Positions 16,446-30,983 of a stretch of DNA of 42,006 nucleotides are shown one piece after another. The stretch comes from Bacteroidia bacterium (GTDB taxonomy: Bacteria; Bacteroidota; Bacteroidia; Chitinophagales; UBA2359), in assembly GCA_030427245.1 (NCBI GenBank), contig JAUHXA010000059.1, positions 1 to 42,006 on the forward strand. Reading direction: 5' to 3'. The notes beneath the pieces were generated by a model. The model had not been told where the DNA came from. It worked only from the letters and a program-made list of their open reading frames with translations, and did not search any database. How positions within the stretch are numbered: the stretch's first letter is position 1; each line of letters starts with the position of its first letter. Both the position numbers and the translations under genes were made by a program.

Positions 16446-16673
16446 ATGGAACATTTAATAGGCAGACAAAAAGAGGTAAAAAAACTGCAACAATATGCGA
16501 TTACCAAAAAATATGCGGACAATCTTAGAAACAAAATTGGAGCCTTCAAAGCTGCTACCAATACCAGAAAAACAATATTCTTAACATTGATTACCACACA
16601 TGGTCTTGTACAAAATCAGTATTCTTATTTGGCGCAAAATGAGCTTTCAATGGGAGTGCTTTTTGAAAGGTGA
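16446..16673 (+). pseudogene. Remnant of an AAA+ ATPase (ATPase_2-like) with its middle deleted
   Basis: The 75-codon frame joins two pieces that in intact Bacteroidota ATPases lie several hundred residues apart. Residues 1-16 (MEHLIGRQKEVKKLQQ) resemble the N-terminal IGR-x-x-E-x-x-x-L lead-in. Residues 17-75 resemble the C-terminal nuclease-like end, with ITKKYADNLRNKIGAFK, TRKTIFLTLITTHG and the closing QNELSM-VLFE. Both Walker motifs and the whole ATPase core are missing, so it cannot be a working ATPase. The deletion kept the frame and the natural stop, so a peptide could in principle still be made. The family assignment is by pattern recall. Ordinary callers would report it as a small hypothetical protein. 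Confidence 0.72.
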
Positions 16674-16841
16674 GAGAGTTTGCAAAGTCTTTGAAGTGTC
16701 AGAAGTGTCGTCCTCCTTACAATAAAAGGGCAATCAAGATGAAATATTTCCACAAGTCCTTTTTTTTAGTCATATTTATACACTCTCCGATGAAAAAAAA
16801 ACATCTAATCTTCCATTTTTTTCACCTAAAACATTTTGTCT

Positions 16842-17219
16842 ATGCAAACATTTAATACTATTCTTCGTCTTTTGTTGGGACTTGTTTTTTTAGTCTTTGG
16901 TTTCAATAAAATTCTTAATTTTTTGCCTCCTCCCGAAGTAAGTGGTGTAGGGGCTGACTTCTTGAGTAACATCTTAGGAAGTAACTTCAAATATGTATTA
17001 GCAGCATTTGAAATCACATGTGGTTTAATGTTATTGGCAAACAAATACGTCAACCTCGCCTTAGCGATTTTAGCTCCTATTGCCATCAATATTTTGATTT
17101 TCCATCTATTGATTGATCAAGATTTGGCGAATGGATTGCCTGGTTTCTTCGTTTTCTTTGCTACTTTTTGGCTTTTCTGGGGACGAAAAGAAGCCTTTGA
17201 AGGTATCTTAAAACCATAG
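16842..17219 (+). CDS. DoxX-family inner-membrane protein, 125 residues
   Basis: This is a small hydrophobic protein with four predicted membrane helices (about residues 5-23, 47-65, 69-90 and 98-115). The N-terminal pattern RLLLGLVFLVFGFNKILNF is typical of DoxX and DoxD-like proteins. The function of most members is unknown; some act in thiosulfate oxidation or redox homeostasis at the membrane. A TTG at 16836 is in frame, but the ATG at 16842 is the more likely start. It is monocistronic and ends at a large shared hairpin with the convergent hydrolase gene. Confidence 0.85.
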   Translation: MQTFNTILRLLLGLVFLVFGFNKILNFLPPPEVSGVGADFLSNILGSNFKYVLAAFEITCGLMLLANKYVNLALAILAPIAINILIFHLLIDQDLANGLPGFFVFFATFWLFWGRKEAFEGILKP

Positions 17220-17230
17220 TGAAATACTCC

Positions 17231-17299
17231 ATTCAAAATACAAAGTCAAGTTCACGTTTAGCAAATCGGAATCTTTGAGTTTGACTTTGTATTTTGAAT
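17231..17299. terminator. Bidirectional hairpin between convergent genes, 19-bp perfect stem
   Basis: Arms 17231-17249 and 17281-17299 are perfect reverse complements (core AAATACAAAGTCAA) around a 31-base loop. It lies between the stops of the DoxX gene and the beta-CASP hydrolase gene. The stem is AT-rich and long, with a modest T-rich tail on both sides. Position argues for a shared terminator. Confidence 0.65.
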
Positions 17300-17308
17300 T
17301 TGTTTTTG

Positions 17309-18724
17309 TTAGTTGTCTTCAAATCGAACCTCATCCTTCAGTCTCGGAATCAACACTTTCCGAAATCCCGCCTCCTTCAATCCTTCCTTAAATTCCTTTT
17401 GACGAGGGTAGTCACCATGTACCAAGAAAATTTGTTTCAATTTTTTGCGACTTTGGTTGTCAAGGTACTCCAACATTTCGGCTTGATCTCCATGTGCGCT
17501 GAACGAATCCATCACCTCGACTCTTGCTTTCACCTGTTTCACTGCTCCAAAAATTTTGATGCTTTCTGCACCTGCCCTTAACTGACCTCCTATTGTGTGA
17601 GGAGGCGCAAAACCGACTATCAAGAGGGTCGTTCTAGGGTCTTCAATATTATTGAGAACATGGTGTTTGATGCGACCTGCTGTAATCATACCCGATGCAC
17701 TGATGATGATACAAGGTTCTTTAGAAAAATTGAGTCTTTTAGAAAGCTCTACACTACGGAGATAGTGTAAATCATTGAACCCAAAAGGATTTGGGTCTTG
17801 TATCATATACTCCAATATTTCTCTGTCAAAACATTCAGGATGCCACTGGAATACATCTGTTGCATTGATGGCCAATGGACTATCTACATAAACAGGAATT
17901 TTAGGCAATTTGCCTTCATTCTCTAATTGATCGAGCATATAAACCACTTCTTGTGTGCGACCAACACTAAAAGCAGGAATCAACAATTTACCCCGTTTTT
18001 CGACGCAGGTTTCATGAATAATTTTCAGCAATTTTGCTTTTTCGTCGGGATGATTGTCATGAGAACGCCCTCCATAAGTAGATTCACAAATCAGGTAATC
18101 ACATTCGGGCATCGGCACGGGGTCACGCAAAATAGGTCGTTCAGGTCGTCCGATATCGCCTGTAAAACCAAAAGTCACCGTTTTGTATTCGTTCTTTTGG
18201 ATTCGCAAAGTCACACTTGCGCTTCCCAAAATATGCCCACTGTCTCGAAACTGTACTTCTACTCCTTCTACAATTTGGTGCCACTTTCCATAACCAATAG
18301 TAGTAAAGGCGTTCATACATGGGGCTACATCCTTGGGCGCGTAAAGAGGATGATCGGTCTTTCCATTGTTTCGATCGTCTTTTTGCTTGTTGATAAATTC
18401 TGCGTCACGAACTTGAATATAGGCACTGTCCATCAACATAATGGCACATAAGTCACGAGTTGCTCCTGTGGAATAAATGGGTCCATTGTAGCCATCTTTG
18501 ACCAATTGAGGCAACCGTCCACTGTGATCAATGTGGGCATGAGATAAAATCACACAATCTATCTCTGAGGGTTTGAAGTTCCAAGTTCTATTGTAGTCTT
18601 CCATTTTTTCTTCAATGCCTTGATACAAACCACAATCCAATAGGATGGTATAGCCATTGTTGAGCGTCAGTAAATGGGAACTTCCAGTAACCGTTTGAGC
18701 TGCTCCGCAAAATTTAATTCTCAT
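17309..18724 (-). CDS. Beta-CASP metallo-beta-lactamase-fold hydrolase (RNA-processing type), 471 residues
   Basis: An N-terminal metallo-beta-lactamase fold carries the zinc motif HAHIDH (residues 62-67), a further metal His in DSGHILGSAS and the metal Asp in FTGDIGRPERP. A beta-CASP insert follows, with PAFSVGRTQEVVY and the STYGG segment. The C-terminal RNA-specificity part includes SASGM, HHVLNN and the conserved FSAHGD. This is the architecture of CPSF73-like or YsfH-like exonucleases and endonucleases acting on RNA in the cytoplasm. The usual bacterial length is about 450-470 residues. The start ATG at 18724 is immediately followed by the typical MRIKFCGAAQTVTGS. The natural substrate cannot be told from the sequence. 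Confidence 0.9.
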   Translation of the reverse strand: MRIKFCGAAQTVTGSSHLLTLNNGYTILLDCGLYQGIEEKMEDYNRTWNFKPSEIDCVILSHAHIDHSGRLPQLVKDGYNGPIYSTGATRDLCAIMLMDSAYIQVRDAEFINKQKDDRNNGKTDHPLYAPKDVAPCMNAFTTIGYGKWHQIVEGVEVQFRDSGHILGSASVTLRIQKNEYKTVTFGFTGDIGRPERPILRDPVPMPECDYLICESTYGGRSHDNHPDEKAKLLKIIHETCVEKRGKLLIPAFSVGRTQEVVYMLDQLENEGKLPKIPVYVDSPLAINATDVFQWHPECFDREILEYMIQDPNPFGFNDLHYLRSVELSKRLNFSKEPCIIISASGMITAGRIKHHVLNNIEDPRTTLLIVGFAPPHTIGGQLRAGAESIKIFGAVKQVKARVEVMDSFSAHGDQAEMLEYLDNQSRKKLKQIFLVHGDYPRQKEFKEGLKEAGFRKVLIPRLKDEVRFEDN

Positions 18725-18884
18725 AAGTGATGATTGATTTTGTAAATGATGTGGTGAAAATGGAACTTTTTTGTCGAAAAAGCAACTTTAGAGGAGATTG
18801 ATGAATGGTTAAATTGTTGTATTGCTGCAATATTGAATATCATTTATCTCCTACTCAAACAAAACTATCAATCTAAACATATAA

Positions 18885-18905
18885 AGACGTTTCACTAAAA
18901 CGTCT
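18885..18905. repeat. REP-like palindrome with an AGACGTTT core
   Basis: AGACGTTT (18885-18892), a 5-base loop and AAACGTCT (18898-18905) form a perfect 8-bp hairpin 18 bases upstream of the exonuclease start. Its look is that of short extragenic palindromes repeated in some bacterial genomes. Only one copy is in this window. Confidence 0.45.
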
Positions 18906-18922
18906 CTACCAACACAAACACT

Positions 18923-19480
18923 ATGAAAAAGTACATTGTAGTAGATTTAGAAGCGACTTGCTGGAAAACAAGGCAAGGGAATTATACCAATGAAATCATT
19001 GAAATTGGGGCGGTGATGATAGACGAATCGGGTAAAATCCTGTCTGAGTTTTGCCAATTCATCAAACCCTTGAAGCATCCGATTCTCTCCGATTTTTGCA
19101 AAGAGTTGACGAGCATTACACAAAGTCAAGTCGACAATGCTCAACACTTTCCAGAAGTGGTGAAAGCTTTTCAGGAATGGATAGGTGTTGGTGAACACGA
19201 CTATGTCTTATGTTCTTGGGGTTTTTATGATGCCAAACAATTCAAGCAAGATTGTCGCCTTTGGAATTTGGATACGGCATGGGTTAAACCTCATATCAGC
19301 GTCAAACACCAATATACGATGGTCAAAGATTTGTCGAAGCATCAAGGCATGACTCGGGCATTGAAGTTGGAAGGAATTCCATTGGAAGGCACTCATCACC
19401 GAGGCATTGACGATGCTCGAAATATTGCCAAGATTTTTGTGCGATATTTGGAGGAGTGGCGGTTTCCTAACAATGTGTAA
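18923..19480 (+). CDS. DEDDh 3'-5' exonuclease of the Eri1/KapD type, 185 residues
   Basis: The protein is a single RNase T or DnaQ-fold exonuclease domain. Exo I is VVDLEATCW (Asp8 and Glu10), the IIEIGAV strand follows, and Exo III is the HHRGIDDARNIAKI segment near residues 159-173, which supplies the catalytic His and Asp. The overall pattern is closest to the Eri1, 3'hExo and sporulation-inhibitor KapD group, which trims the 3' ends of small or structured RNA. Length is normal. Acting on RNA rather than DNA is inferred from the family. It stands alone, transcribed away from the beta-CASP hydrolase gene. Confidence 0.87.
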   Translation: MKKYIVVDLEATCWKTRQGNYTNEIIEIGAVMIDESGKILSEFCQFIKPLKHPILSDFCKELTSITQSQVDNAQHFPEVVKAFQEWIGVGEHDYVLCSWGFYDAKQFKQDCRLWNLDTAWVKPHISVKHQYTMVKDLSKHQGMTRALKLEGIPLEGTHHRGIDDARNIAKIFVRYLEEWRFPNNV

Positions 19481-19663
19481 AAATTAAAATCAGTATTCAC
19501 AATCCATGTTTTATGAAACAACTCTGCAAACTTATTTTGAGCTATTCCCCAAATAAAAAGACTAAGGCAAATTCAAATTAAAAACTCAAATGCAAATTCA
19601 AACAATACTTTGTAAGCGAGCAAAGTAAATTGCAGAAATGCCTAATTTAATATTTTAGTTTGC

Positions 19664-19860
19664 CTAAGTAATGGTAAAAAAATGATAATAGAATGAAACC
19701 TCTGCGATTAAATAATTATTAAAACACAAAAGGGAATGATTATTTAATTCAAGGTAAGTAAAAAAGAAAAAATAACTTCCCGACCGATATTCCCCTTTTG
19801 AAAGGGGGTGGGGTATGTTAGCAAAAGAAAACGGGGAGTTATTTTTTTACCGTTACTAAG
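19664..19860. mobile_element. MITE-like element of 197 bp with 20-bp terminal inverted repeats (copy A)
   Basis: The left end CTAAGTAATGGTAAAAAAAT (19664-19683) and the right end (19841-19860) are reverse complements at 18 of 20 positions. The right half, 19767-19860, is itself an imperfect palindrome: arms 19767-19782 and 19832-19847 (15 of 16 paired) enclose an inner hairpin CCCCTTTTGAAAGGGG. This right half is repeated at 36213-36300. No coding capacity and no clear target-site duplication are seen. A MITE or a large REP element both fit. Confidence 0.6.
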
Positions 19861-19877
19861 TTCCACCTGACTTTTAC

Positions 19878-19917
19878 AAACAAATATAAACAAATGTAAA
19901 CGAATATAAACAGATAA
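19878..19917 (+). repeat. Four tandem 10-bp units directly upstream of yjbQ
   Basis: The units AAACAAATAT, AAACAAATGT, AAACGAATAT and AAACAGATAA follow without gaps and end 4 bases before the ATG of yjbQ. The near-helical spacing of A-tracts would favour bent or open DNA, and the repeat would form an unstructured A-rich leader in RNA. Confidence 0.7.
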
Positions 19918-19921
19918 AAAA

Positions 19922-20332
19922 ATGATACAACAAACAGAAATCCAACTTCCTGCTTTCCCCAGAGGTTTTCACCTCATTACGCACCATATTGAAAAACACC
20001 TCGGTAATTTACCTGCAATGGGATTGTTACACGTTTTCATCAAACATACCTCGGCGGGAATTTGCATAAATGAGGGGGCAGACCCCGATGTGTTGACCGA
20101 TTTTGAAACGGTTTTCAATCGCTTAGTTCCTGAAAACGATCCTGCTTATGTGCATACCTTGGAAGGGTCTGACGATATGCCCGCTCATATCAAGGCGGTA
20201 ATGTCGGGCAGTTCTGTAACCATCCCAATCACTGAACATCGTTTGAATTTGGGGACTTGGCAGGCAGTGTATCTGTGTGAGTTTCGGAATCGGGGCGGGG
20301 GTCGGAAGTTGGTTTTGACGGTTTGGAGCTAG
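19922..20332 (+). CDS. yjbQ: YjbQ family protein (UPF0047), 136 residues
   Basis: The whole protein matches the UPF0047/YjbQ fold: the HVFIKHTSAGICINEGAD block with its conserved His, Thr-Ser and Asn (residues 37-54), the HTLEGSDDMPAHIKAVM block with the conserved metal-binding His residues (about 80-96), and the closing GTWQAVYLCEFR. E. coli YjbQ complements a thiE mutant weakly, which led to the label secondary thiamine-phosphate synthase. The true reaction in most species is unknown. Length is normal for the family. Its 3' end overlaps 104 bases of the convergent membrane-protein gene. Confidence 0.92.
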   Translation: MIQQTEIQLPAFPRGFHLITHHIEKHLGNLPAMGLLHVFIKHTSAGICINEGADPDVLTDFETVFNRLVPENDPAYVHTLEGSDDMPAHIKAVMSGSSVTIPITEHRLNLGTWQAVYLCEFRNRGGGRKLVLTVWS

Positions 20333-20918
20333 GAGATATTGGTAATCTGATTTCGATTTCTTTCACCAAAGACGGAATGGGAATTACCTTTACCGAACCT
20401 CCTTCCATGTATAGAAATACCACATCATTGGTTTTGCCAATCATTTTGCCTTGTATGGTTTCGTTGTCAGCGTATTTAAGTGTTGTTTTCTCTTTTTTAT
20501 AAATCTTGTTTTCTGTAAATTTTGCATAGCCGACAGCCGCTTCAAATATGAAATAAAAAAACAATAAAATAAAAAGAACAATCCGCAACTTGTTGTACCA
20601 CGGTTTCTTGTCCCAACCAAAGTTGAACTTAGAATATGCTTCTGGATATTCTTTTTTGAAATAGACATCAAAACTGACAATGAGAAAGGGGATTATCATT
20701 GCCAACAATGCTGCAACAATAATCATCTTATCTTGAAAAGGAGCTATCAAAAAATCAAACACATCGGCATACTCAAAAATATTGATTCCAAATGTTGAGT
20801 ATACTTTGTATTTGAACAACATGCCAATACCAATCATCAGCAGATAAGCAATGGTTATCAAAGTTTGGATTTCCTTGATGATGAGTTCGTAGGTGTCTTT
20901 TATAAGTCCTTCTTTCAT
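20229..20918 (-). CDS. Hypothetical three-helix membrane protein with a tail read through antisense of yjbQ
   Basis: I do not recognise the family. Three hydrophobic segments are visible at about residues 19-36, 65-84 and 112-131. A soluble C-terminal part follows (about 135-190), including a KYADNETIQGKMIGKTNDVVFLYM stretch that looks like a small beta domain. The last 34 or so residues are rich in Ser, Pro, Thr, Asp and Lys and are encoded entirely antisense to the end of yjbQ. They look like a tail gained by loss of an earlier stop. The first 190 residues have normal composition, so the gene itself is probably real. It starts 42 bases downstream of the macro-domain remnant on the same strand. 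Confidence 0.65.
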   Translation of the reverse strand: MKEGLIKDTYELIIKEIQTLITIAYLLMIGIGMLFKYKVYSTFGINIFEYADVFDFLIAPFQDKMIIVAALLAMIIPFLIVSFDVYFKKEYPEAYSKFNFGWDKKPWYNKLRIVLFILLFFYFIFEAAVGYAKFTENKIYKKEKTTLKYADNETIQGKMIGKTNDVVFLYMEGGSVKVIPIPSLVKEIEIRLPISPSSKPSKPTSDPRPDSETHTDTLPAKSPNSNDVQ

Positions 20919-20960
20919 GGTGTTTTAATTGTTTGTGTTAGAGGCTGTTGATATCTTCCA

Positions 20961-21132
20961 TTATCTTCTGGTAATTCGGTAGTTTTCTTCGTCAAAACAA
21001 ACAAAAATCACCTCTTTCAATGTTGAAGAATCTATCTTCGAGATCACTTCCCAATAAGGAAGTATTTGCAGCATTTACGATTGCATCTACTTCAATTTTG
21101 GTGATGTCACCTTTGGTTAGGTTGATTTTCAT
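20961..21132 (-). pseudogene. Macro-domain protein remnant with an internal deletion
   Basis: From the ATG at 21132 the frame gives the classic macro-domain opening MKINLTKGDITKIEVDAIVN followed by AANTSLLG, about 28 residues. The ADP-ribose-binding GGGGVDGAIH loop should come next but is absent. Shifted by one frame, the following DNA encodes the usual macro-domain end, KEVIFVCFDEENYRITRR, with a stop at 20961-20963. Roughly 110 codons of the core are missing and the two ends are out of frame. The family normally hydrolyses ADP-ribose esters or O-acetyl-ADP-ribose; this relic cannot bind the ligand. The junction lies near 21050. Confidence 0.82.
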
Positions 21133-21162
21133 TTTTGTTGTGTATTTTGAATAATTAGTGTA

Positions 21163-22722
21163 CTACCAATCAATCGGACGATAATCCTTCAAAAACTTCC
21201 CGCACCAATGTTTCCCCGTATTCATCCCATCAAACAGAGGATCCATCACCCTTGCCGCACCGTCTACGATGTCCAAAGGAGGCTGAAAATCATGCACATC
21301 CTGTTTTCGTTTAGCCAACTCAGCTGGATCTTCGTCCGTCACCCAGCCCGTATCAACAGCGTTCATAAAAATACCGTATTTTGCAAAATCAGAAGCCGCT
21401 GTATGCGTCATCATATTGAGGGCAGCCTTTGCCATGTTGGTGTGCGGATGTCGGTCAGCTTTGTGCCAACGGTGGAATTTGCCCTCCATTGCAGAAACGT
21501 TAATGATGTGTTTCATGCCTGTGTTTTCTTTTTTCATCAAATTCGACAAGCGATTACACAAGACAAAAGGAGCAACAGAATTGACCAATTGCACCTCCAA
21601 CATTTCATTGGTGCTGACTTCGCCCAACTTCAATCGCCAACTGTTGGTTTTTCGCAAATCCACTTGCTGCAAATCTGCATCCAATTCCCCCACAGGAAAC
21701 ACCTCTTCGGCAGTCAAAGAATTGTCAATGCTGTACGGAATTTGTGACAATTGGGCAGAAGCACTCAAGCCAATACCCAACTGTTTGCCATGCCAAGTGA
21801 CAGGCAAATTTTTGTTTTCACCCTCTGCAAAACCCATGCTCAAAGTCCTCAATTCTTGCAAACAAGCATCGTGATCCGACAAAACCATCTGTGCATTAGG
21901 TGGCAATTCTGCCATCGAAAGTTCCTCATTGGGCATGAGGTGTTGGTAAAACCCAGCAGGACGTCGCACAGTTTGAGCAGCATTGTTGATGAGCACGTCT
22001 AAGCGGTCATAGTGCTGTTCGATGTAATTGCAGAAAATTTCCACACTCGGTATGTGCCGCAAATCCAAACCATGAATTTTCAGCCGATGTCCCCATACAT
22101 GAAAGTCGGGCTCTTTGGAGTACCGCAAGGCAGAATCCACAGGGAATCTAGTCGTTGCAATCACCGTTGCCCCCGCCTTCAACATCATCAAGCAGATGTG
22201 ATAGCCAATTTTGAGGCGAGAACCCGTCACCAAAGCCACTTGATTCGTCATATCTGCTGTTTGGTAGCGTTTGGCATAATTGAAGTCGCCACAATTTTTA
22301 CACATCGAATCGTAAAAATGATGCAGTTTGTTATACTCTGCCTTGCAGACGTAGCAGTTTCGGGGTGAACTCAACTCCAATTCTTTTTCGGCTTCTTTCC
22401 CTGTCAAAGCAATCATTTTGGGCGCAACAAAAATGGAGGCTTCTCTCGCACTTCTGATACCTGTTGCCCTACGAGCGTGTTTGTCTTTTTCCGTTTTCCT
22501 TCTTTTCTTCGCCTTTTTTACTTCCTTTTTGCGCCTTGCAAACTCCTCCCTACTCGGCCTCGAAAGCTGTCCCGCCGCCTTGATAAGCGCCAATCTTGTG
22601 TCTTTTGGAATTTCAAATATTTGATTGGTATGGGCGTTCAATGCCTCTAATGTGGCTATACACTGAGCAATCTGCTCTTGAGTCAGTTCAATGGGTTTGT
22701 CTTCTTCTTTGTCTGTTGTCAT
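21163..22722 (-). CDS. Atypical short-chain dehydrogenase/reductase with an N-terminal Cys4 extension, 519 residues
   Basis: Residues 1-170 form an extension with a very basic helix near 55-85 (many Lys and Arg) and a likely zinc ribbon, CYVC...CKNC, near 122-143. The Rossmann domain follows, with [15 protein letters not shown] (about 162-176) as dinucleotide-binding loop and VLINNAAQ as the NNAG-type motif. The catalytic Ser may be in the NVSAMEG segment. At the YxxxK position the sequence reads TNMAK, so the Lys is present but the catalytic Tyr is replaced by Thr. The substrate is unknown and the enzyme may use a different acid or be non-catalytic. A likely promoter lies just upstream. Confidence 0.85.
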
Positions 22723-22756
22723 GCTTCAATCGGAAATCAATGAAAAATTAAAAGGA

Positions 22757-22789
22757 CAAAAATACAGATAAGTAACGAATGATTTTCAA
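22757..22789 (-). promoter_or_regulatory. Promoter of the atypical SDR gene
   Basis: On the minus strand a TTG (22787-22789) is followed after 22 bases by TATTTTTG (22757-22764), matching the Bacteroidota -33/-7 pattern. The expected transcript start is about 28 bases before the ATG at 22722. Confidence 0.55.
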
Positions 22790-23031
22790 GAGATGCCGAT
22801 GTTTTGACCTTTATGGCTTTGGTTCTTTGCTTGCTTGAAACCTGCAAAGTAAGGCTTGGAAAGTTTAATTCTAAGAAAAAATATAACTACCATTTTGGTT
22901 ATGAGTGTTTTGCAAACTAAGGATTCTGAAAGCTCTATCGTATTCTCAAAAGAATCAAAAGAAAATTGATATATTTGGTCACAGGCTTCAAACACAAACT
23001 ATACAACATATAAAATCTTTGCCTAAGAATT

Positions 23032-23109
23032 GTGAGTTTGGTTGATGATTTGCCGATGAGTACTACGGGAAAGGTATTGAAGAAGGAATTGAGGAAGTTG
23101 TATTTGTGA
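23032..23109 (+). pseudogene. C-terminal stub of an AMP-forming acyl-CoA synthetase
   Basis: The frame reads VSLVDDLPMSTTGKVLKKEL followed by RKLYL and a stop at 23107-23109. LP-x-x-x-TGK-V-L-K-x-E-L-R is the A10 motif that ends acyl-CoA synthetases; its Lys is the adenylation catalytic residue. Just upstream, a shifted frame reads SLPK, where intact enzymes have YKLPK, so a frameshift lies near 23028. Nothing of the remaining 500 or so residues is visible. It ends 23 bases before the next start. Confidence 0.75.
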
Positions 23110-23132
23110 CTTGAATCTAAAAAAATAACACA

Positions 23133-23504
23133 ATGGAAATTTTCTTTAGAATTTGTCTATTTATTGCAGGACTCATAAACTTCTTCCCATCCCTTTTGGC
23201 TTTTTTACCAAGTAAAATAGCCACATCTTATGGCATCAAAATTCCAGATGCTAATTACGAATTACTGCTTCGACACAGGGCAGTAATGTTTGGAATAGTT
23301 GGCGGAATCATGATTTATTCGGCAATAAGTCAGAAGCACTATTCTCTTGCAGTAGTCATTGGTCTAATAAGTATGGTTTCCTTTATTGTACTATTGAAGT
23401 TGGTCAATGGAGCAGTGAATCCAGAGTTGATGAAGGTGATGAAAGTAGATGTAATCGGAATAATTATACTGTTGATAGGACTGGTATTATACAAGTTCGC
23501 ATAA
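23133..23504 (+). CDS. Small four-helix membrane protein, 123 residues
   Basis: Four hydrophobic segments (about residues 5-25, 48-65, 70-92 and 101-121) flank conserved charged turns, including LPSKIATSYGI and LLLRHRAVMFGIVGG. Relatives in Bacteroidota are, from memory, often mislabelled phosphopantetheine adenylyltransferase. Nothing here resembles the nucleotidyltransferase HxGH motif, so that label should not be copied. It starts the gene run leading into the GH3 gene (27-base gap), which may be transcriptional convenience rather than shared function. Confidence 0.75.
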   Translation: MEIFFRICLFIAGLINFFPSLLAFLPSKIATSYGIKIPDANYELLLRHRAVMFGIVGGIMIYSAISQKHYSLAVVIGLISMVSFIVLLKLVNGAVNPELMKVMKVDVIGIIILLIGLVLYKFA

Positions 23505-23531
23505 AAATAAAACATAGAATTAAATATCATA

Positions 23532-25475
23532 ATGAATAAAACAACACTGTTCTTTTTAGGGCTTGCATTTTTATCAAGCTGTACGAATCCTCCCACGGAA
23601 GAAAAAGTAGTTCAATTACCAGATTTGGTTCAGAAAAAATCCAAGGTGATAGTTGAAAAAGAAAGGATTCCGTTTAGGGATCTGAACCACAATGGTCAAC
23701 TGGATATTTACGAAGATGAAAGCCAGTCTATTGAAGAAAGGATAAACGACTTATTAAGTCAAATGAATTTGGAAGAAAAGGCGGGCATGATGTTCATGAA
23801 TGGTGCAGCCATTAGCAAAGATTCAAAGCCCGATGGACAAGAAGAATTGGAAGGTCCTGCCGCAAGAATGCCTTCAATAGTTGAGAATATCAACACTCGC
23901 AAAATGACTCATTTTAATGTGTGGTCTATCCCTGCCGACCTAAATATTTTTGCCAAATGGTACAATAATACTCAACAAGTAGCGGAGAAAAGCAGATTGG
24001 GCATACCTATTACAATTTCTTCCGACCCTCGACATCACCTTGGGCAAAATGTGATTGGAATGGCTTCAACAGGATTTAGTCAGTTTTGTGAAATGCCTGG
24101 TTTTGCGGCAATTGGTGATGAAACATTGGTCAGAGAGTTTGCGGAAATTGTTCGACAAGAATACCTTGCTATTGGCATCAGAGAGGCTTTACATCCTCAA
24201 ATTGACTTGGCAACAGAACCTCGTTGGGCAAGAATAAGCGGAAACTTTAGCGAAGATGCGGAATTGACGGCTCGATTAGTGAAACCTTACATTGAAGGCC
24301 TGCAAGGTGAAAACCTGAGCGATGGCGTAGCCTGTATGACGAAACACTTTCCAGGTGGAGGCCCTCAAAAAGAGGGTTTGGATCCACATTTTTCTTTTCA
24401 AAAAGGACAAATCTACCCCGGTGATAATTTCAATTATCACCTAATTCCTTTTAAAGCAGCATTTGAAGCCAAAACTGCTGCAATCATGCCTTACTATGGC
24501 GTACCGACCGACCAGACAGAAGAAAACGTGGCAATGTCGTACAACAAAACCATCATTACCACTCTATTGAGAGAAAAATACAAATACGATGGCGTGGTTT
24601 GTACGGATTGGGGATTGATTACGGATGCACCTATGGGACCAGAAGTCGTTTGGAAAGCAAGGGCTTGGGGCGTTGAAGATTTAGGCGCAGCTGACCGAGT
24701 ACTGAAAGTAATCGAGGCAGGATGTGACCAATTTGGAGGAGAACACAGACCCGAATTGGTGGTTCAATTGGTCAAAGAAGGCAGGTTGGCAGAAGAACGA
24801 ATAAACCAATCCATAAAGCGCTTGTTGAGACAAAAATTTCAATTGGGCTTGTTTGAGAATCCTTTTGTAGATGAAACAAAGGTGGACGAAATTGTCGGTG
24901 CGGAGGCATCAAAAGCTTTGGGTGAAAAAACACAAAAAATCTCGATGACACTTTTGAAGAACGATAAGTCCACACTGCCATTGACTAAAAATAAACTCAA
25001 GGTTTATGTCGAAAATGTGGATGCTGCAACGGTAGCGAACTATGCAGAAGTGGTATCAACACCCGAAGCAGCCGATTTTGCCATCATCCGAGTGAATACA
25101 CCGTGGTATCCTGTTGATACCAAAAATCCTTTTGCCGCCTCTTTCCATCATGGCGACTTGGATTTCAAAGGGGCAGAAAAAAATAAGATATTGAAAATCT
25201 TAAACGCCGTTCCAACGATTGTAGCTATCTACTTGGATAGGCCTGCTGTTATTCCAGACATTACTCAAGCCGCTGCTGCCGTTATTGCAGATTATGGGGC
25301 AAGTGACAAATCTGTTTGCGAAGTTCTTTTTGGAAATGCTATCCCACAAGGGAAGCTACCTTTTGAGCTGCCTTCTTCAATGGAGGCTGTCAAAAATCAA
25401 AAGACAGATGTGCCGTATGATAGTGAAAATCCATTGTTTGAATTTGGGTTTGGTTTGGAATATGGAAAGGAATAA
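23532..25475 (+). CDS. Glycoside hydrolase family 3 lipoprotein (beta-glucosidase type)
   Basis: A lipoprotein signal peptide ends at the lipobox LSSC (Cys17), so the enzyme is anchored in a membrane, probably facing the periplasm or surface. The GH3 N-terminal barrel shows NLEEKAGMMF (near 79-88), the substrate-binding KHFPGGG (near 273) and the catalytic nucleophile Asp359 in GVVCTDWG. The C-terminal GH3 domain runs from about 470 to the end, with AAAVIADYGASDKSV and GKLPFELP. The family removes beta-linked glucose or xylose units from the non-reducing end; exact linkage is not predictable. It is second in a tight cluster with a GH13 enzyme and a sugar transporter. Confidence 0.92.
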   Translation: MNKTTLFFLGLAFLSSCTNPPTEEKVVQLPDLVQKKSKVIVEKERIPFRDLNHNGQLDIYEDESQSIEERINDLLSQMNLEEKAGMMFMNGAAISKDSKPDGQEELEGPAARMPSIVENINTRKMTHFNVWSIPADLNIFAKWYNNTQQVAEKSRLGIPITISSDPRHHLGQNVIGMASTGFSQFCEMPGFAAIGDETLVREFAEIVRQEYLAIGIREALHPQIDLATEPRWARISGNFSEDAELTARLVKPYIEGLQGENLSDGVACMTKHFPGGGPQKEGLDPHFSFQKGQIYPGDNFNYHLIPFKAAFEAKTAAIMPYYGVPTDQTEENVAMSYNKTIITTLLREKYKYDGVVCTDWGLITDAPMGPEVVWKARAWGVEDLGAADRVLKVIEAGCDQFGGEHRPELVVQLVKEGRLAEERINQSIKRLLRQKFQLGLFENPFVDETKVDEIVGAEASKALGEKTQKISMTLLKNDKSTLPLTKNKLKVYVENVDAATVANYAEVVSTPEAADFAIIRVNTPWYPVDTKNPFAASFHHGDLDFKGAEKNKILKILNAVPTIVAIYLDRPAVIPDITQAAAAVIADYGASDKSVCEVLFGNAIPQGKLPFELPSSMEAVKNQKTDVPYDSENPLFEFGFGLEYGKE

Positions 25476-25514
25476 ATATCGTTTAAGTTTTTATAATAGA
25501 TAAAATCCAGGAAA

Positions 25515-27287
25515 ATGATTAAGAAATGCTCATTGCTATACATGATGGTTTTATTAATAATAGGTTGTGCCAATCAGCCACAAGCGAAAGAGGAAACTTC
25601 AATGGAGACAACAACTTCGATACCATCCGAAAAAGGTACATGGTGGAAAGAAGGGATTCTTTACCAAATCTATCCACAAAGTTTTAAGGATACAGATGGG
25701 GACGGATTTGGTGATTTTAAAGGTGTGATAGAAGAACTGGACTATCTTCAAAGCTTGGGTATTACGATGGTTTGGATGAACCCTTTCTTTGAGTCCCCAT
25801 TGGTGGACAATGGCTACGATGTCGGTGATTATCGAGCCATTTTGCCACGATATGGCACTATGGAGGATTTTCAAGAAATGCTGGATGGTATGCACAAACG
25901 AGGAATCAAATTTGTGTTGGATGTAGTGGTCAATCATAGCAGCAATCAGCATGAATGGTTTAAACAAGCCAGCAGTTCTCGGGACAATCCGTACTACAAC
26001 TATTACCACTGGTGGCCTGCTGAGAAAGGCGAACCACCGCATCGTCATAGCCTATTTGATCCAGAAGGCGGTTGGGACTTTAACGAAGCTACCAATTCTT
26101 ATTACCTCCACACATTTGCGGAGCAACAGCCTGACTTGAATTGGGAAAACCCAAAACTACGTCAAGAGGTGTATGAAATCATGAAGTTTTGGGCGGAGAA
26201 AGGAGTGGACGGATTCCGAATGGACGCTTTTCAGTTTGCCAGTAAAGACACGACTTATCCTGAATTTCCGAAAGGACACGAAAAAGATTTTATTAAGTGG
26301 TACGGAATGCGTCCACAGTTGCATGATTACCTCAATGAAATGTACAATGAGGTGATTTCAAAATACGATGTTTTTGCCGTAGCAGAAGGTGCAGGAAGTA
26401 CTTTTCAAGACGCACATGACTTGGTAGATGCCGACCGAAACGAGCTTCAAACAGCTTATCACTTCGAAACGGTGGATATGTCAAGAACTCCAGATGGTTA
26501 CGAATTGACAGAGTTTAAGGAGGTATTCAGTCGTTGGGACAGTGCTTTTGCCGAAAAAGGCTGGATTGCTGTTTTTCTCTCCAATCACGACAATGCTCGC
26601 TTGGTGGATCGGTTTGGAAATCCGAGCCCCGAATTCAGGACAGTTTCTACTCAGATGTTGAATACTTTTTTACTCAGTATGAGGGGTACACCTTATACGT
26701 ACTATGGGGATGAACTGGGCATGACCAATATTGACATGCCGACTATTGAGGAATATGTGGATATAGATGCCATAGGTAAATACAAGACTGCATTGGCTGC
26801 TAATGAAGATATGGATGAATTTATGAAGGTATTGAATTACAGTTCTCGTGAAAACGGCCGTACTCCTATGCAGTGGAACGATTCTGCAAATGCTGGATTT
26901 ACAATGGGTACGCCTTGGAAAAAGGTCAATGAAAACTACAAAGAAATCAATGTAGCTGCTCAAGATAAAGATCCAAACAGTGTGCTGAATCACTTCCGAA
27001 AAATGACCAAAGTAAGAAATAATAACCCTGTGTTGGTTTATGGCAAATATGAATTGCTGCAAAAAGAACATCCCGAAATCTATGCTTTTACAAGAGAGTT
27101 AGAAGAAAATAAAATGCTTATACTTCTCAATTTTTCAAGTAATGTCAGCAGCCTTCAATTAGATAGTAAAGTATCCATTGGTCAGCCAATTATCAATAAT
27201 TATGAGACTCTGGAACGAAGCGGACAAAAAATTTCCTTGAAGCCTTATCAGGCAATTATTTTTTCTTTAGATTGGGCCTCTATTTAA
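25515..27287 (+). CDS. GH13 alpha-glucosidase / oligo-1,6-glucosidase-type lipoprotein
   Basis: The signal peptide ends in lipobox LIIGC (Cys18). The catalytic barrel begins with WWKEGILYQIYPQSFKDTDG, the hallmark of GH13 alpha-glucosidases, with the calcium-type DTDGDGFGD loop. The three catalytic residues are in place: nucleophile Asp237 in GFRMDAF, acid/base Glu291 in AVAEGAG, and the stabilising Asp359 in LSNHDNAR. NGRTPMQWNDS near 455 is typical of exo-acting alpha-glucosidases. A beta-sandwich domain closes the protein. It should release glucose from maltose-like, isomaltose-like or sucrose-like oligosaccharides outside the cytoplasm. It ends 17 bases before the transporter start. Confidence 0.93.
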   Translation: MIKKCSLLYMMVLLIIGCANQPQAKEETSMETTTSIPSEKGTWWKEGILYQIYPQSFKDTDGDGFGDFKGVIEELDYLQSLGITMVWMNPFFESPLVDNGYDVGDYRAILPRYGTMEDFQEMLDGMHKRGIKFVLDVVVNHSSNQHEWFKQASSSRDNPYYNYYHWWPAEKGEPPHRHSLFDPEGGWDFNEATNSYYLHTFAEQQPDLNWENPKLRQEVYEIMKFWAEKGVDGFRMDAFQFASKDTTYPEFPKGHEKDFIKWYGMRPQLHDYLNEMYNEVISKYDVFAVAEGAGSTFQDAHDLVDADRNELQTAYHFETVDMSRTPDGYELTEFKEVFSRWDSAFAEKGWIAVFLSNHDNARLVDRFGNPSPEFRTVSTQMLNTFLLSMRGTPYTYYGDELGMTNIDMPTIEEYVDIDAIGKYKTALAANEDMDEFMKVLNYSSRENGRTPMQWNDSANAGFTMGTPWKKVNENYKEINVAAQDKDPNSVLNHFRKMTKVRNNNPVLVYGKYELLQKEHPEIYAFTRELEENKMLILLNFSSNVSSLQLDSKVSIGQPIINNYETLERSGQKISLKPYQAIIFSLDWASI

Positions 27288-27304
27288 TATACAAAACAAC
27301 AACT

Positions 27305-28726
27305 ATGTCAAAAATTACGCTTGATTCTGTTAAACCCCGACTCTCCTTTTGGCAGATTTGGAATATGAATTTTGGTTTTTTTGGTATTCAATTTAGCTTT
27401 GGCTTGCAGCAGAGCAATATGAGTGCCATTTACAAATATTTGGGAGCGAGTGAACATGAAATCCCCATTCTCTGGTTGGCAGGACCTGTGACGGGATTGA
27501 TTATTCAACCCATTATTGGAGCGATGAGTGATGGCACTTGGTCGCCCCGATTTGGTAGAAGAAAGCCTTACTTTTTGATTGGAGCTATTTGTGCCAGTAT
27601 AGCCTTAATCTTTATGCCTTTTTCCCAAACTATATGGATGGCGGCAGGACTACTATGGATATTAGATGCAGGAAACAACATCGCTTTAGAGCCTTACAGA
27701 GCCTTTGTGTCCGACAAATTAGAAAAAGAACAACTTTCTCTCGGTTTTTTGATGCAGAGCTTTTTTACAGGCTTAGGAAGTACTTTAGCCAATTTTACCC
27801 CTGCTATATTGATTTCACTGGGCTTTTTTGCATTGACTGATACGATGGAAAACGGCATTCCCGTAGCGACTTATTGGGCATTTTTCATAGGTGCTTTTGC
27901 CTCTATAGCCACTGTTTTATTTTCTGTATTCACAACTTCAGAATATCCACCTTCGCCCGAAGATTTAGTGAGAATGGAGGAGGAAAAGGCAAAGGGCAAC
28001 GTGCTGATTCGTACTTATCGTGATGTCGTCGCTGCTATGAAGGTGATGCCCTTAACGATGAAACAACTCATTCCAGTGAAGTTTTTTACTTGGTATGCCA
28101 TGTTTTGTTACTGGCAATATTTGACCTCTGCCTTATCACTTTCCCTTTTTGATACCTTAGACCAGTCGACTGAGGGCTTCAAGCAAGCCCAAGTATTAAC
28201 AGGTCAAATGAATGGAACATACAACATTATGTGTTTTATGCTTGCCTTTGCATTGGTTCCTTTAGCTATCCGAATTGGAGCAAAAGGAGTTCATTTTATT
28301 AGCTTGTTGTTAGGAGGAATAGGATTATTGCTGATTCCTTACCTAACTATTACAGATGTGCTATTTAGTATTCCAAATCCTTTTGGAGCAGGAAGTATTC
28401 AGATTACCAGTCTATATTTATACACCATTGGATTGGGAATTGCATGGGCTTCAATGCTTGCAATGCCCTATCAACTATTGGCAGGGTCTATTCCGAAAGA
28501 CAAAACAGGCGTTTACATGGGAATCTTTAACCTATTTATTGTGATTCCGATGATAATTCAAATTTTCACCATGCAGTTTTTTGTGTATGATTTGCTGGGA
28601 AGCAATCCTATCAATGTCATTCGATTGGCGGGTGCCTTTTTGATTCTTGGAGGTGTATTTACCTTGTTTGTCAAAGAAGATAGAGGTGCAAATGTCGGAA
28701 CAACAATGACAGGGGGAGGGCACTAA
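27305..28726 (+). CDS. MFS sugar transporter, SLC45/GPH-like, 473 residues
   Basis: About 12 membrane helices fill the protein. The first cytoplasmic loop carries GAMSDGTWSPRFGRRKPYFLIG, the D-x-x-x-x-R-x-G-R-R pattern of sucrose/maltose proton symporters (SLC45-like and plant SUT-like). Helix 4 has DAGNNIALEPYRAFVSD, also typical of that group. The frame is open from 27272, overlapping the GH13 gene, but the ATG at 27305 fits the family start (MSKITL...PRLSFWQIWNMNFGF). With the upstream lipoprotein hydrolases it probably imports the glucose or disaccharide they release. No SusC/SusD pair is nearby, so this is not a standard polysaccharide-utilisation locus. Confidence 0.9.
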   Translation: MSKITLDSVKPRLSFWQIWNMNFGFFGIQFSFGLQQSNMSAIYKYLGASEHEIPILWLAGPVTGLIIQPIIGAMSDGTWSPRFGRRKPYFLIGAICASIALIFMPFSQTIWMAAGLLWILDAGNNIALEPYRAFVSDKLEKEQLSLGFLMQSFFTGLGSTLANFTPAILISLGFFALTDTMENGIPVATYWAFFIGAFASIATVLFSVFTTSEYPPSPEDLVRMEEEKAKGNVLIRTYRDVVAAMKVMPLTMKQLIPVKFFTWYAMFCYWQYLTSALSLSLFDTLDQSTEGFKQAQVLTGQMNGTYNIMCFMLAFALVPLAIRIGAKGVHFISLLLGGIGLLLIPYLTITDVLFSIPNPFGAGSIQITSLYLYTIGLGIAWASMLAMPYQLLAGSIPKDKTGVYMGIFNLFIVIPMIIQIFTMQFFVYDLLGSNPINVIRLAGAFLILGGVFTLFVKEDRGANVGTTMTGGGH

Positions 28727-28883
28727 GGAACTTCAAAACCTGTTCCGAAACCTTGAGATTAGAAACTCAAATGCAAAGCCTGATCCGTATTTGAATCGGA
28801 ATTCAAACAAGCAAAATTCGGTAATTCTTAAACAAACTCTTACAGAACTTTAAGAAACTTTATTTTAAATATAAAAACTCACG

Positions 28884-29963
28884 ATGAGAATGAACAATTT
28901 AAATGATACCCTGACCTTTCCTTGTGGAGCACGCATGAAAAACCGTTTTATGCTTGCTCCAATGACCAACACCCAGAGTCATGAGGATGGCACACTTTCT
29001 AATGAGGAATTCAATTGGTTGACAAAGAGAGCAAAAGGACAATTTGGGCTGGTTATGACCTGCGCTTCACACGTTCAAGCCAATGGAAAAGGCTTCCCTG
29101 GTCAATTGGGAATATTTGCCGACAAGCACATTCAAGGTCATATAAAGTTGGCAAAAGCCATTAAAGCTCACGGAAGTTTGGCAGTGATTCAATTGCACCA
29201 TGCGGGTATGCGTTCTCCTCAAGAACTTATTGGAGAAGCCCCTGTATGCCCTTCTGCCGTTGAACGAAAAGGTGCAAGAGCTTTGACATTGAAGGAAGTA
29301 CATGCTCTTCGAGATGATTTCATTTCGGCGGCTGTACGTTCCAAACAAGCGGGTTATGATGGAGTCGAAATTCATGGCGCACATGGCTATATTTTGGGGC
29401 AGTTTTTAAGCGCAGACATCAATCACAGAACGGATGAATATGGCGGTTCATTGGAGAATCGTTCCCGTATTTTGTTTGAAATAGTAGAGGGAATCAGAGT
29501 AACCTGTGGTGAAAAATTCTTGTTGGGAATTCGCTTGTCTCCCGAACGATTTGGGATGCAATTGGCTGAAATAAAAACGGTTTGCGAACAACTGATTGAA
29601 GGCGGAAAAGTAGACTTTTTGGATATTTCATTGTGGGACAGCTTCAAAATGCCTGTTGAAGAAGAACATCAGCATAAAAGTCTATTGCAGCATTTTACCG
29701 ACCTCGACTTCAAAAATGTCTTATTGACCGTTGCTGGAAAAATACGTACTGCAAAGGAAGTCACTGCAATTCTCGACTCTAAAGTGGATTTTGTGACCAT
29801 AGGTAGATCAGCGATTTTACACCATGATTTTCCTGAGAAGGTGATGAACGATTCAACATTTGAACCGATTGAGTTGCCTGTCACAAAAGAGTATTTGAGT
29901 AAGGAAGGTTTGAGTGAGCGCTTTATTGGGTATATGAGTAATTGGACTGGCTTTGTGGCTTGA
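28884..29963 (+). CDS. NADH:flavin oxidoreductase of the Old Yellow Enzyme family, 359 residues
   Basis: A single FMN-binding TIM barrel of the usual size. Signature parts are KNRFMLAPMTN near residue 20, QLHHAGMRS (about 107-115), GVEIHGAHGYILGQFLS (about 160-176, with the substrate-binding His pair), NHRTDEYGGSLENRSRILFEIV (about 179-200) and the phosphate-binding TIGRSAILHHDFP near 315. It uses NAD(P)H to reduce activated double bonds or similar electrophiles; the natural substrate is unknown. It lies 157 bases behind the transporter and ends 5 bases before the convergent DUF2490 gene, so its link to the sugar genes is weak. Confidence 0.9.
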   Translation: MRMNNLNDTLTFPCGARMKNRFMLAPMTNTQSHEDGTLSNEEFNWLTKRAKGQFGLVMTCASHVQANGKGFPGQLGIFADKHIQGHIKLAKAIKAHGSLAVIQLHHAGMRSPQELIGEAPVCPSAVERKGARALTLKEVHALRDDFISAAVRSKQAGYDGVEIHGAHGYILGQFLSADINHRTDEYGGSLENRSRILFEIVEGIRVTCGEKFLLGIRLSPERFGMQLAEIKTVCEQLIEGGKVDFLDISLWDSFKMPVEEEHQHKSLLQHFTDLDFKNVLLTVAGKIRTAKEVTAILDSKVDFVTIGRSAILHHDFPEKVMNDSTFEPIELPVTKEYLSKEGLSERFIGYMSNWTGFVA

Positions 29964-29968
29964 AAAAA

Positions 29969-30655
29969 CTACTCAGCTTCCCGAAAATCAGGATTGAAAA
30001 CCAAACCAACCTGTAAATAATTTTTTCCAAAATCATTCACCCTTTGACGCAAGTATCCAATTTGCATTTGAGTCGTTTTGTTGAACTGATACCCTAAGGC
30101 CGTATAAAAACGATTGCGGTCAAAAAATACCTGTTTGGTATTTAAAAAGATTTCATCATATACTCCAAGAAAAAAAGTGCCTGTCGTAATCGTTGGTTTG
30201 TTGATAGGCAAGAAAACCATGAGGCGATAACGAAGCCGACTTTTGTAATCATTGTTCACCCATCTCTGCTCGAAGCGATAGCGATGCTCAAATTTTAGAC
30301 GACTCACTTTATTCGTCATAATGAGTTGCTGAAAGATACGATTTTCCTTCGATTCGGGTGCTTTCTGCTCGCTTTCAAAATCATGTGATGCGACATATCC
30401 ATAGCCCAATGTAACAATGGCGTTTGGGCTCAAATGGTAATTTACGCCAGTTCTGAGCAGTAGCTGTTCGATATTTGTGGGTTCTATCGTATGGTTTCGA
30501 TATTGGATTTCGGAGTGAATACTCCAATCATCAGAAACTCTATTGGTGCCAAAATACATGAGCCAGTTACCGAATTCATTTTGCTGTGCCAGCAGAGAGT
30601 TTGAGAACAAAATTAGGATAAAGATTAAGAAAGGGGAGTAGAATTTTTTAATCAT
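29969..30655 (-). CDS. DUF2490 outer-membrane beta-barrel protein, 228 residues
   Basis: A signal peptide ends near residue 24 (NSLLAQQ). The mature part alternates polar and aromatic residues as expected of 10 or so membrane beta-strands, for example WSIHSEIQYRNH, RLKFEHRYRFEQRWV and QMQIGYLRQRVNDFG. The pattern matches DUF2490 proteins, which Bacteroidota carry in several copies and whose role is unknown. The C-terminus ends in an YLQVGLVFNPDF strand as in other outer-membrane barrels. It is convergent with the oxidoreductase gene. Confidence 0.85.
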   Translation of the reverse strand: MIKKFYSPFLIFILILFSNSLLAQQNEFGNWLMYFGTNRVSDDWSIHSEIQYRNHTIEPTNIEQLLLRTGVNYHLSPNAIVTLGYGYVASHDFESEQKAPESKENRIFQQLIMTNKVSRLKFEHRYRFEQRWVNNDYKSRLRYRLMVFLPINKPTITTGTFFLGVYDEIFLNTKQVFFDRNRFYTALGYQFNKTTQMQIGYLRQRVNDFGKNYLQVGLVFNPDFREAE

Positions 30656-30698
30656 TGTTTCTTTTTGTATTGAGATATAATCATGTATTTTTTATGCA

Positions 30699-30762
30699 AA
30701 AAAATATCCACATTCCCCTCCTAAGAAGGGAATGGGATACAGTTAAATTCGGGAAGAATTTT
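30699..30762. repeat. Possible degenerate copy C of the dispersed palindromic repeat
   Basis: The core ATTCCCCTCCTAAGAAGGGA and the following ATGGGATACAGTTAAA run in parallel with the centre of copies A and B (ATTCCC, a short T/A loop, AAGGG, then a TGT/TAC-rich stretch and a G-run). The outer arms are weak, so this is tentative. Confidence 0.35.
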
Positions 30763-30844
30763 AACGTATACTTTCTAACACAAAATTCATCTTTCCTGTT
30801 TCGACATCATGCACCGTACCCACAATGCCAATCTCTCCATGTTG
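30761..30844 (-). pseudogene. C-terminal stub of a beta-carbonic anhydrase
   Basis: The minus-strand frame reads QHGEIGIVGTVHDVETGKMN followed by FVLESIR and a stop at 30761-30763. This is the closing strand-turn of beta-carbonic anhydrases (usually G-x-I-x-I-V-G-A-x-Y-D-V-x-T-G). A stop codon directly precedes it in frame; a shifted frame continues upstream for about nine codons (SSMAENV). The zinc-binding Cys-Asp-His-Cys part is absent. It lies directly downstream of the SulP transporter gene on the same strand, where carbonic anhydrase is often found. Confidence 0.75.
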
Positions 30845-30983
30845 CTACATTTTCAGCCATTGAAGAGACAATCATTGATTAGGCTTCTGCTATTTGGGTG
30901 GTTTTATCTGTATATTTTTCTATTTGAAGAAATGAATGTTGTCAGTATATTTTTACACGTTAAATTAAACAGATACCACTCTG

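Follow-up and report, generated by a model that had tools for sequence, protein, structure and literature searches.

RESULTS

Four gene remnants within 14.4 kb of one contig

The stretch analysed here, called the window throughout, is the 42-kb contig C156 (JAUHXA010000059.1) of a Bacteroidia bacterium whose genome spans 7.58 Mb in 187 contigs. A sequence-only reading had proposed that 14.4 kb of it hold the remnants, or stubs, of four genes encoding an AAA+ ATPase, a macro-domain protein, an acyl-CoA synthetase and a beta-carbonic anhydrase (CA). For comparison we used 39 other genomes, none of them from the genus of the window genome. For each family, intact relatives were aligned and the resulting profile was run against all six frames of the window, with stops read through. 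All four remnants proved to be real and to come from the families named (Table 1), and the matches that came after them had E values of 0.3 or worse. The profile searches returned the stubs alone, that is, no intact parent of any of the four was found in the window. The synthetase profile (4 distinct members) and the CA profile (39 distinct) were made of sequences selected via their C-terminal motif, and their E values are therefore somewhat flattered; synteny for CA and a search with the bare peptide for the synthetase are independent of that selection. Searching Pfam with the four stub peptides gave no meaningful match, and the window contained no Rfam match at gathering scores and no detectable tRNA.

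As proposed, two stubs (AAA+ and macro) have kept both ends and lost the middle, and two (synthetase and CA) consist of the last ~25 codons alone. The further claim that all four retain their C-terminus and stop codon held for three, in which the family stop is readable, but not fully for the macro remnant: because it is split over frames, it is uncertain which codon was its original stop.

Table 1. Remnants, neighbouring features and surveyed remnant clusters (profile matches from the six-frame search of the window; C numbers are contigs of the window's own genome)
Feature	Location	Strand	Description	Profile match
AAA+ (ATPase_2 type) remnant	16446..16673	+	~14 N-terminal codons fused in frame to ~60 C-terminal codons	16485-16667 (+), positions 416-477/478, E=6e-20
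Macro-domain remnant, N-terminal part	21046..21135	-	runs to the NAANTSLLG motif	positions 2-31/174, E=3e-11
Macro-domain remnant, C-terminal part	20961..21032	-	in a different frame	positions 147-170/174, E=2e-5
Acyl-CoA synthetase (AMP-binding) remnant	23026..23109	+	last ~27 codons including stop	23026-23097 (+), positions 491-514/515, E=6e-7
Beta-carbonic anhydrase remnant	30761..30856	-	last ~26 family codons plus short tail with stop	30856-30779 (-), positions 188-213/213, E=7e-4 (next best in window, 1.9)
Terminator-like hairpin with T-run	30701..30738	-	between CA remnant and DUF2490 gene
SulP (sulfate permease family) transporter gene	30984..32594	-	intact, upstream of CA remnant
DUF2490 gene	29969..30655	-	intact, downstream of CA remnant
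Hypothetical gene	20229..20918	-	starts 42 nt past the end of the macro match
Hypothetical gene	23133..23504	+	start codon 23 nt past the stop of the synthetase remnant
Own-genome survey, C-side remnants (10)	C26:45887, C26:9354, C23:71460, C31:104552, C55:34029, C55:35366, C71:48439, C71:49624, C78:58834, C172:107200
Own-genome survey, N-side remnants (2)	C173:134026, C26:113481
Own-genome survey, both-ends remnant (1)	C26:111408
Own-genome survey, internal remnant (1)	C26:36022
Other-DNA survey, ambiguous (5)	G018C1:54633, L136, L224, L225, L308:3788
Other-DNA survey, dropped (6)	four G009 hits, G018C1:92760, L217		the G009 hits are to one doubtful N-type reference

The AAA+ remnant is 75 codons long, open and in frame from start to stop. 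Its last ~60 residues align with the C-terminus of full-length relatives (60% identity to an intact copy in its own genome), and its first ~14 reproduce the N-terminal motif of the family (E=0.0043, the top match across six frames), so that both ends place it in ATPase_2 (PF01637). The nucleotide-binding motif, GRRRVGKT in relatives, is absent from the frame. Intact paralogs exist in the same genome: of its 15 matches to the family, the stub itself included, 11 sit in frames 463-499 aa long. A second C-terminal stub of this family lies elsewhere in the same genome (L174:5887-6009, that is, G000:C26:45887-46009). The AAA+ junction was the only one of the four examined for repeats: over 8 rows, representing 7 distinct genes, the longest string common to the two break regions measured 5-7 nt. 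Between 19% and 92% of shuffles did as well, and a repeat at the junction was rejected.

The two macro-domain (PF01661) matches follow each other in the expected order on the same strand. The middle of the domain is gone and the parts are in different frames, leaving no intact reading frame; four further macro matches occur in the genome. Beside this remnant, a UPF0047 gene (19922-20332, +) and the hypothetical gene at 20229-20918 (-) converge and share 104 nt at their 3' ends (20229-20332).

The synthetase stub matches the C-terminal end of AMP-binding acyl-CoA synthetases (PF00501/PF13193), and its bare peptide retrieved the same C-ends from whole genomes (E=5e-7 and 8e-7). It is 62-79% identical to the C-ends of four relatives, whose frames measure 524-535 aa, versus 44% for the top match elsewhere in its own genome, from which the orthologue therefore appears to have gone.

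The CA remnant occupies the place of an intact gene in related loci

The CA stub gave the best match of the window to the C-terminus of beta-carbonic anhydrases (PF00484). Reduced to ~26 final codons, with an in-frame stop close to its 5' edge, it lacks the zinc-site residues of a working enzyme and is a remnant, not a family member. The CA loci that a PF00484 search brought up in 20 genomes, its own included, all failed to match the stub region at E 0.01; the stub was then tied to its family by comparing SulP loci. One CA match lies elsewhere in its own genome and has a different C-terminus (L071).

We compared the SulP loci of the best 80 of 264 relatives, the nearest named ones being Saprospiraceae metagenome-assembled genomes (MAGs) with 88-89% SulP identity; the window genome is accordingly regarded here as one of Saprospiraceae type. 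By manual count, 60 loci were assessable (SulP identity of at least 65% and at least 700 nt downstream), 9 being set aside for too little downstream sequence and 11 for SulP below 65%. CA stood intact directly behind SulP in 41 of the 60, was missing from 18 and was present as a C-terminal stub alone in one (L101). The window stub thus sits where relatives carry the intact gene, in the order SulP-CA-DUF2490, and the order TetR-SulP is recurrent too. The four loci of highest SulP identity (L092, L093, L094 and L097) have no CA, and in L093 and L097 DUF2490 immediately follows SulP. A forward-strand profile search reaching up to 2.5 kb past SulP, made in the 18 CA-less loci plus five with SulP below 65%, yielded no more CA remnants (best other match, E=2). 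At one orthologous site in Saprospiraceae, species thus differ in holding the whole gene, a C-terminal stub of it or none of it.

The stub in L101 (3012-3143) belongs to a second Saprospiraceae MAG and lies right behind SulP, ahead of a hairpin. It comprises the last ~42 codons of CA (profile positions 171-212/213, E=8e-14).

A probable terminator and downstream genes border three of the retained 3' ends

The terminator-like hairpin starts 22 nt past the stop of the CA stub in the window and 21 nt past it in L101. We ran a simple hairpin-plus-T-run scan over related loci. Hairpins were found behind 25 of 47 intact CA genes, a set that includes loci with SulP below 65%, and within none of the 47 CA coding stretches. 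Behind SulP, they occurred in 13 of 18 CA-less loci versus 1 of 47 loci with CA next (first 120 nt; Fisher p=7e-9, with unequal scan lengths of 160 and 120 nt). Mononucleotide shuffles gave means of 0.0-0.1 for all three sets, that is, behind CA, behind SulP without CA and behind SulP with CA. The median distance from gene to hairpin was 28 nt for CA and, in loci lacking CA, 37 nt for SulP. A close hairpin behind SulP is, therefore, usual where CA is absent. A hairpin of the CCCATTCC type is common to the window, L093 (without CA) and L103 (with CA), and this similarity suggests for these loci that a hairpin now close behind SulP may be the former post-CA terminator.

The sequence-only reading had also raised the possibility that retained ends carry promoters or terminators for neighbours. 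This fits the CA remnant, which ends right before a probable terminator, but not the AAA+ remnant, which lies 162 nt ahead of a DoxX frame without a close 3' neighbour such as a terminator or a next start. Neighbours may account for the retained 3' ends of three of the four stubs, namely CA, synthetase and macro. The AAA+ remnant is simply an internal in-frame deletion, which a model of 3' neighbours leaves unexplained.

Several observations weigh against functional 3' DNA as the limit. The scan found no hairpin 3' of the AAA+, macro or synthetase remnants, none in 5 of the 18 CA-less loci, and it missed the L101 hairpin, which has a one-base bulge and is visible only on folding; the unequal scan lengths (160 versus 120 nt) are a further weakness. 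A generic terminator scan of 16.3-31.1 kb gave 11 sites where shuffles gave 12.0, which means no general enrichment of hairpins in the region; the hairpin at the CA stub has the longest stem of these sites. Several C-terminal stubs found in the survey described below (C23:71460, C26:45887 and C31:104552) meet a convergent gene, which makes the start of a next gene impossible as an anchor there. Finally, the synthetase and macro stubs showed no neighbours in common with relatives: no window gene recurred at E 1e-10 in four stretches of 9-20 kb with a close synthetase homologue (L212-L215), and none was found next to the macro genes of relatives.

Counts outside the window do not establish a 3' bias

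The window stubs alone, with 2 C-only versus 0 N-only cases, do not go beyond chance (p=0.5). Intergenic DNA was surveyed by a mechanical search followed by curation by eye. The survey covered 1.64 Mb of the window's own genome, of which the window is a part, together with 1.70 Mb of other DNA, nearly all from relatives. It superseded an initial version over 1.26 Mb, which admitted E values up to 0.05 and gave 50 clusters. Curation was by one reader, and counts shift with small changes. The contigs were those already known from earlier matches, which included repeat, AAA, macro and CA matches; the sample is therefore non-random, and the AAA and macro references partly depend on the stubs. Detection in the window and in L101 was also favoured, because L101 had been fetched as a SulP locus and the references include loci matching the four stubs.

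The own-genome survey gave 41 clusters. Four were window clusters, namely the AAA, macro and synthetase stubs plus one intact gene (UPF0047); the CA stub fell below the survey threshold there (E 0.01). Outside the window, 14 of 37 clusters were kept (Table 1). The match at C26:9354 ends 17 residues before the C-terminus, and C172:107200 reaches the C side solely with the adjoining frame included. The 23 dropped clusters comprised 13 repeat or adhesin regions, two intact uncalled genes, a split gene (C31:62180), the tail of an open reading frame (ORF; C78:4791), a weak hit (C18:83951) and five N-type hits with doubtful reference frames, leader DNA or dispersed DNA. Copy counts support dropping C172:60060 among these five (17 hits) and partly C173:6232 (6) and C173:64417 (4); C23:27999 and C26:38026 (3 copies each) were dropped on the reader's judgement. 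In the other DNA, 16 clusters resolved into two C-type (L101 and L310), three N-type (L118, L308:8479 and L311), five ambiguous and six dropped; one ambiguous cluster, L224, belongs to the window's own genome.

In total, remnants outside the window numbered 12 with a C-end versus 5 with an N-end (p=0.14). Four of the C-end cases (C31:104552, C55:34029, C71:49624 and C78:58834) resemble what we take to be shared C-terminal sorting domains, although only C31:104552 and C78:58834 match several different proteins. Without shared C-terminal domains, the count was 8 versus 5 (p=0.58), and restoring the dropped hits (five N-type and two C-type in the own genome, four N-type in other DNA) made it 14 versus 14. 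In a detection control with 108 intact genes, C-ends versus N-ends were recovered 44 versus 42 times at 25 codons, 77 versus 59 at 40 and 96 versus 78 at 60. With non-significant curated counts, parity on restoring and C-ends that are easier to find at 40-60 codons, the preference for 3' ends that had been read into the cluster is not established. The accompanying caution, that easily recognised C-termini might have been selected, is borne out at 40 and 60 codons but not at 25.

Outside the window, the survey kept 14 remnants in 1.60 Mb of the own genome. Of 805 own-genome ORFs measuring 200-1200 aa, only 108 were represented in the reference set by an intact homologue, so the true remnant density is perhaps several times higher. 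Window stubs matched by references not fetched for them numbered two (AAA and macro) versus 0.37 expected (p=0.05, post hoc, on contigs partly known from AAA and macro matches). Local clustering of remnants is at most weakly supported.

Two surveyed sites hold stubs near their own parents. At G000:C55:34029-39226 (L279:14029-19226), the order is gene A, stub of B, a 156-aa ORF, gene B, stub of A: genes of 1184 aa and 242 aa each have a C-terminal stub of themselves nearby, interleaved, in an arrangement that looks like cassette duplication or C-terminal displacement. At G000:C31:104552-104764 (L244:4552-4764), a lone copy of the final 64 codons of a 1197-aa protein lies ~6 kb from its parent, with 98% protein and 92% DNA identity.

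DISCUSSION

We think it probable that the four stubs arose independently, as pseudogene remnants of ordinary gene loss, with deletions bounded by functional 3' DNA. Each gene would have lost its middle or its 5' part, with additional frame changes in the macro gene. The reach of a deletion may have been limited by the terminator of the transcript ending there, as for CA, or by the region in which a co-directional downstream gene starts, as for the synthetase and perhaps the macro gene. On the 5' side of a dead gene within a transcription unit, little would still be needed. With a functional 3' side and a dispensable 5' side, the last ~25 codons could persist as bystanders. The remnants themselves and the synteny at CA are observed; that the losses were independent and that selection on the 3' neighbours set the limit we infer.

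A shared deletion mechanism, as the sequence-only reading had envisaged, or a mobile element that removed all four genes seems to us very improbable. Four remnants inside 14.4 kb, two of them found via references not fetched for them against the post hoc expectation given above, could speak for it, as could two dispersed ~105-bp repeats at 19.55-19.86 kb. However, the four stubs show three different shapes, the AAA+ junction has no repeat beyond chance against 7 distinct genes, the dispersed repeats are absent from every stub, and the rate of remnants elsewhere is probably several times the counted one, given the 108/805 reference coverage. These repeats (19554-19671 and 19748-19861) have an inverted-repeat structure that we label as resembling miniature inverted-repeat transposable elements, with copies elsewhere in the genome of up to 100% identity (46 other places among the matches listed). 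With no copy at any of the four stubs, they were rejected as a stub-making element. Nearly as implausible is a working role for any of the stubs as a short gene. The AAA+ remnant of 75 codons is the best candidate, since its junction is in frame and its start motif and stop are retained. Yet the ATPase core is missing, and an internal deletion stays in frame a third of the time. When the AAA+ stub was matched against 20 genomes including its own, moreover, every other short frame began its match at query residue 13 or later, so a second two-ended short copy was not seen.

More serious, though still unlikely, is a genome-wide selection for 5'-first loss, in which loss of the promoter and start silences a broken gene, so that C-terminal scraps persist while expressed N-terminal scraps are removed. 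The 12 versus 5 count outside the window goes in this direction. So do young Salmonella pseudogenes, removed faster than neutral according to the passages of PMC2916853 drawn on here, and the transcribed pseudogenes of Mycobacterium leprae, described in the part of PMC2753549 used here as silenced in translation through the absence of start codons and of strong Shine-Dalgarno sequences. Against it stand the p value of 0.14, the fall to 8 versus 5 (p=0.58) without shared C-terminal domains, the easier detection of C-ends at 40-60 codons and the 14 versus 14 obtained on restoring dropped hits. Bounded ordinary loss in the window could itself be extended to a rule, with functional 3' DNA (operon terminators or the leader of the next gene) acting as a general deletion stop and bacterial erosion leaving C-terminal scraps more often than N-terminal ones. 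We regard this extension as doubtful. If it were true, the repeated loss of CA from the SulP-CA-DUF2490 unit would be a natural test case for 3' deletion stops, and the site behind SulP allows a direct test of the role of the terminator in limiting deletions.

The stub cluster, striking as it looks, is most likely ordinary decay, that is, pseudogene erosion of an already known kind, and we have no evidence of a special mechanism. In the literature consulted, nothing addressed whether the 5' or the 3' part of a decaying bacterial gene persists, which is no proof that no such work exists. Rhs C-terminal displacement (PMC2935791) reportedly leaves C-terminal pieces beside an intact copy, a likeness to some stubs elsewhere in the genome, such as those on C55; in contrast, the four window stubs have no intact parent in the window. 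In the passages of Kuo and Ochman (2010; PMC2916853) drawn on here, weakly selected bacterial genes are inactivated and then removed chiefly by deletion. The likeness lies in deletional erosion and in pseudogenes recognised between conserved neighbours; the difference is that in the window most of each gene is already lost, and those passages contain no discussion of the surviving gene end. The part of the Buchnera study used here (PMC3164680) reports conserved terminators and Shine-Dalgarno sequences in intergenic spacers, many of them with decaying pseudogenes. That is a reduced symbiont genome, unlike the 7.58-Mb genome studied here, but the likeness is that functional elements are kept in the spacers that gene decay leaves behind.

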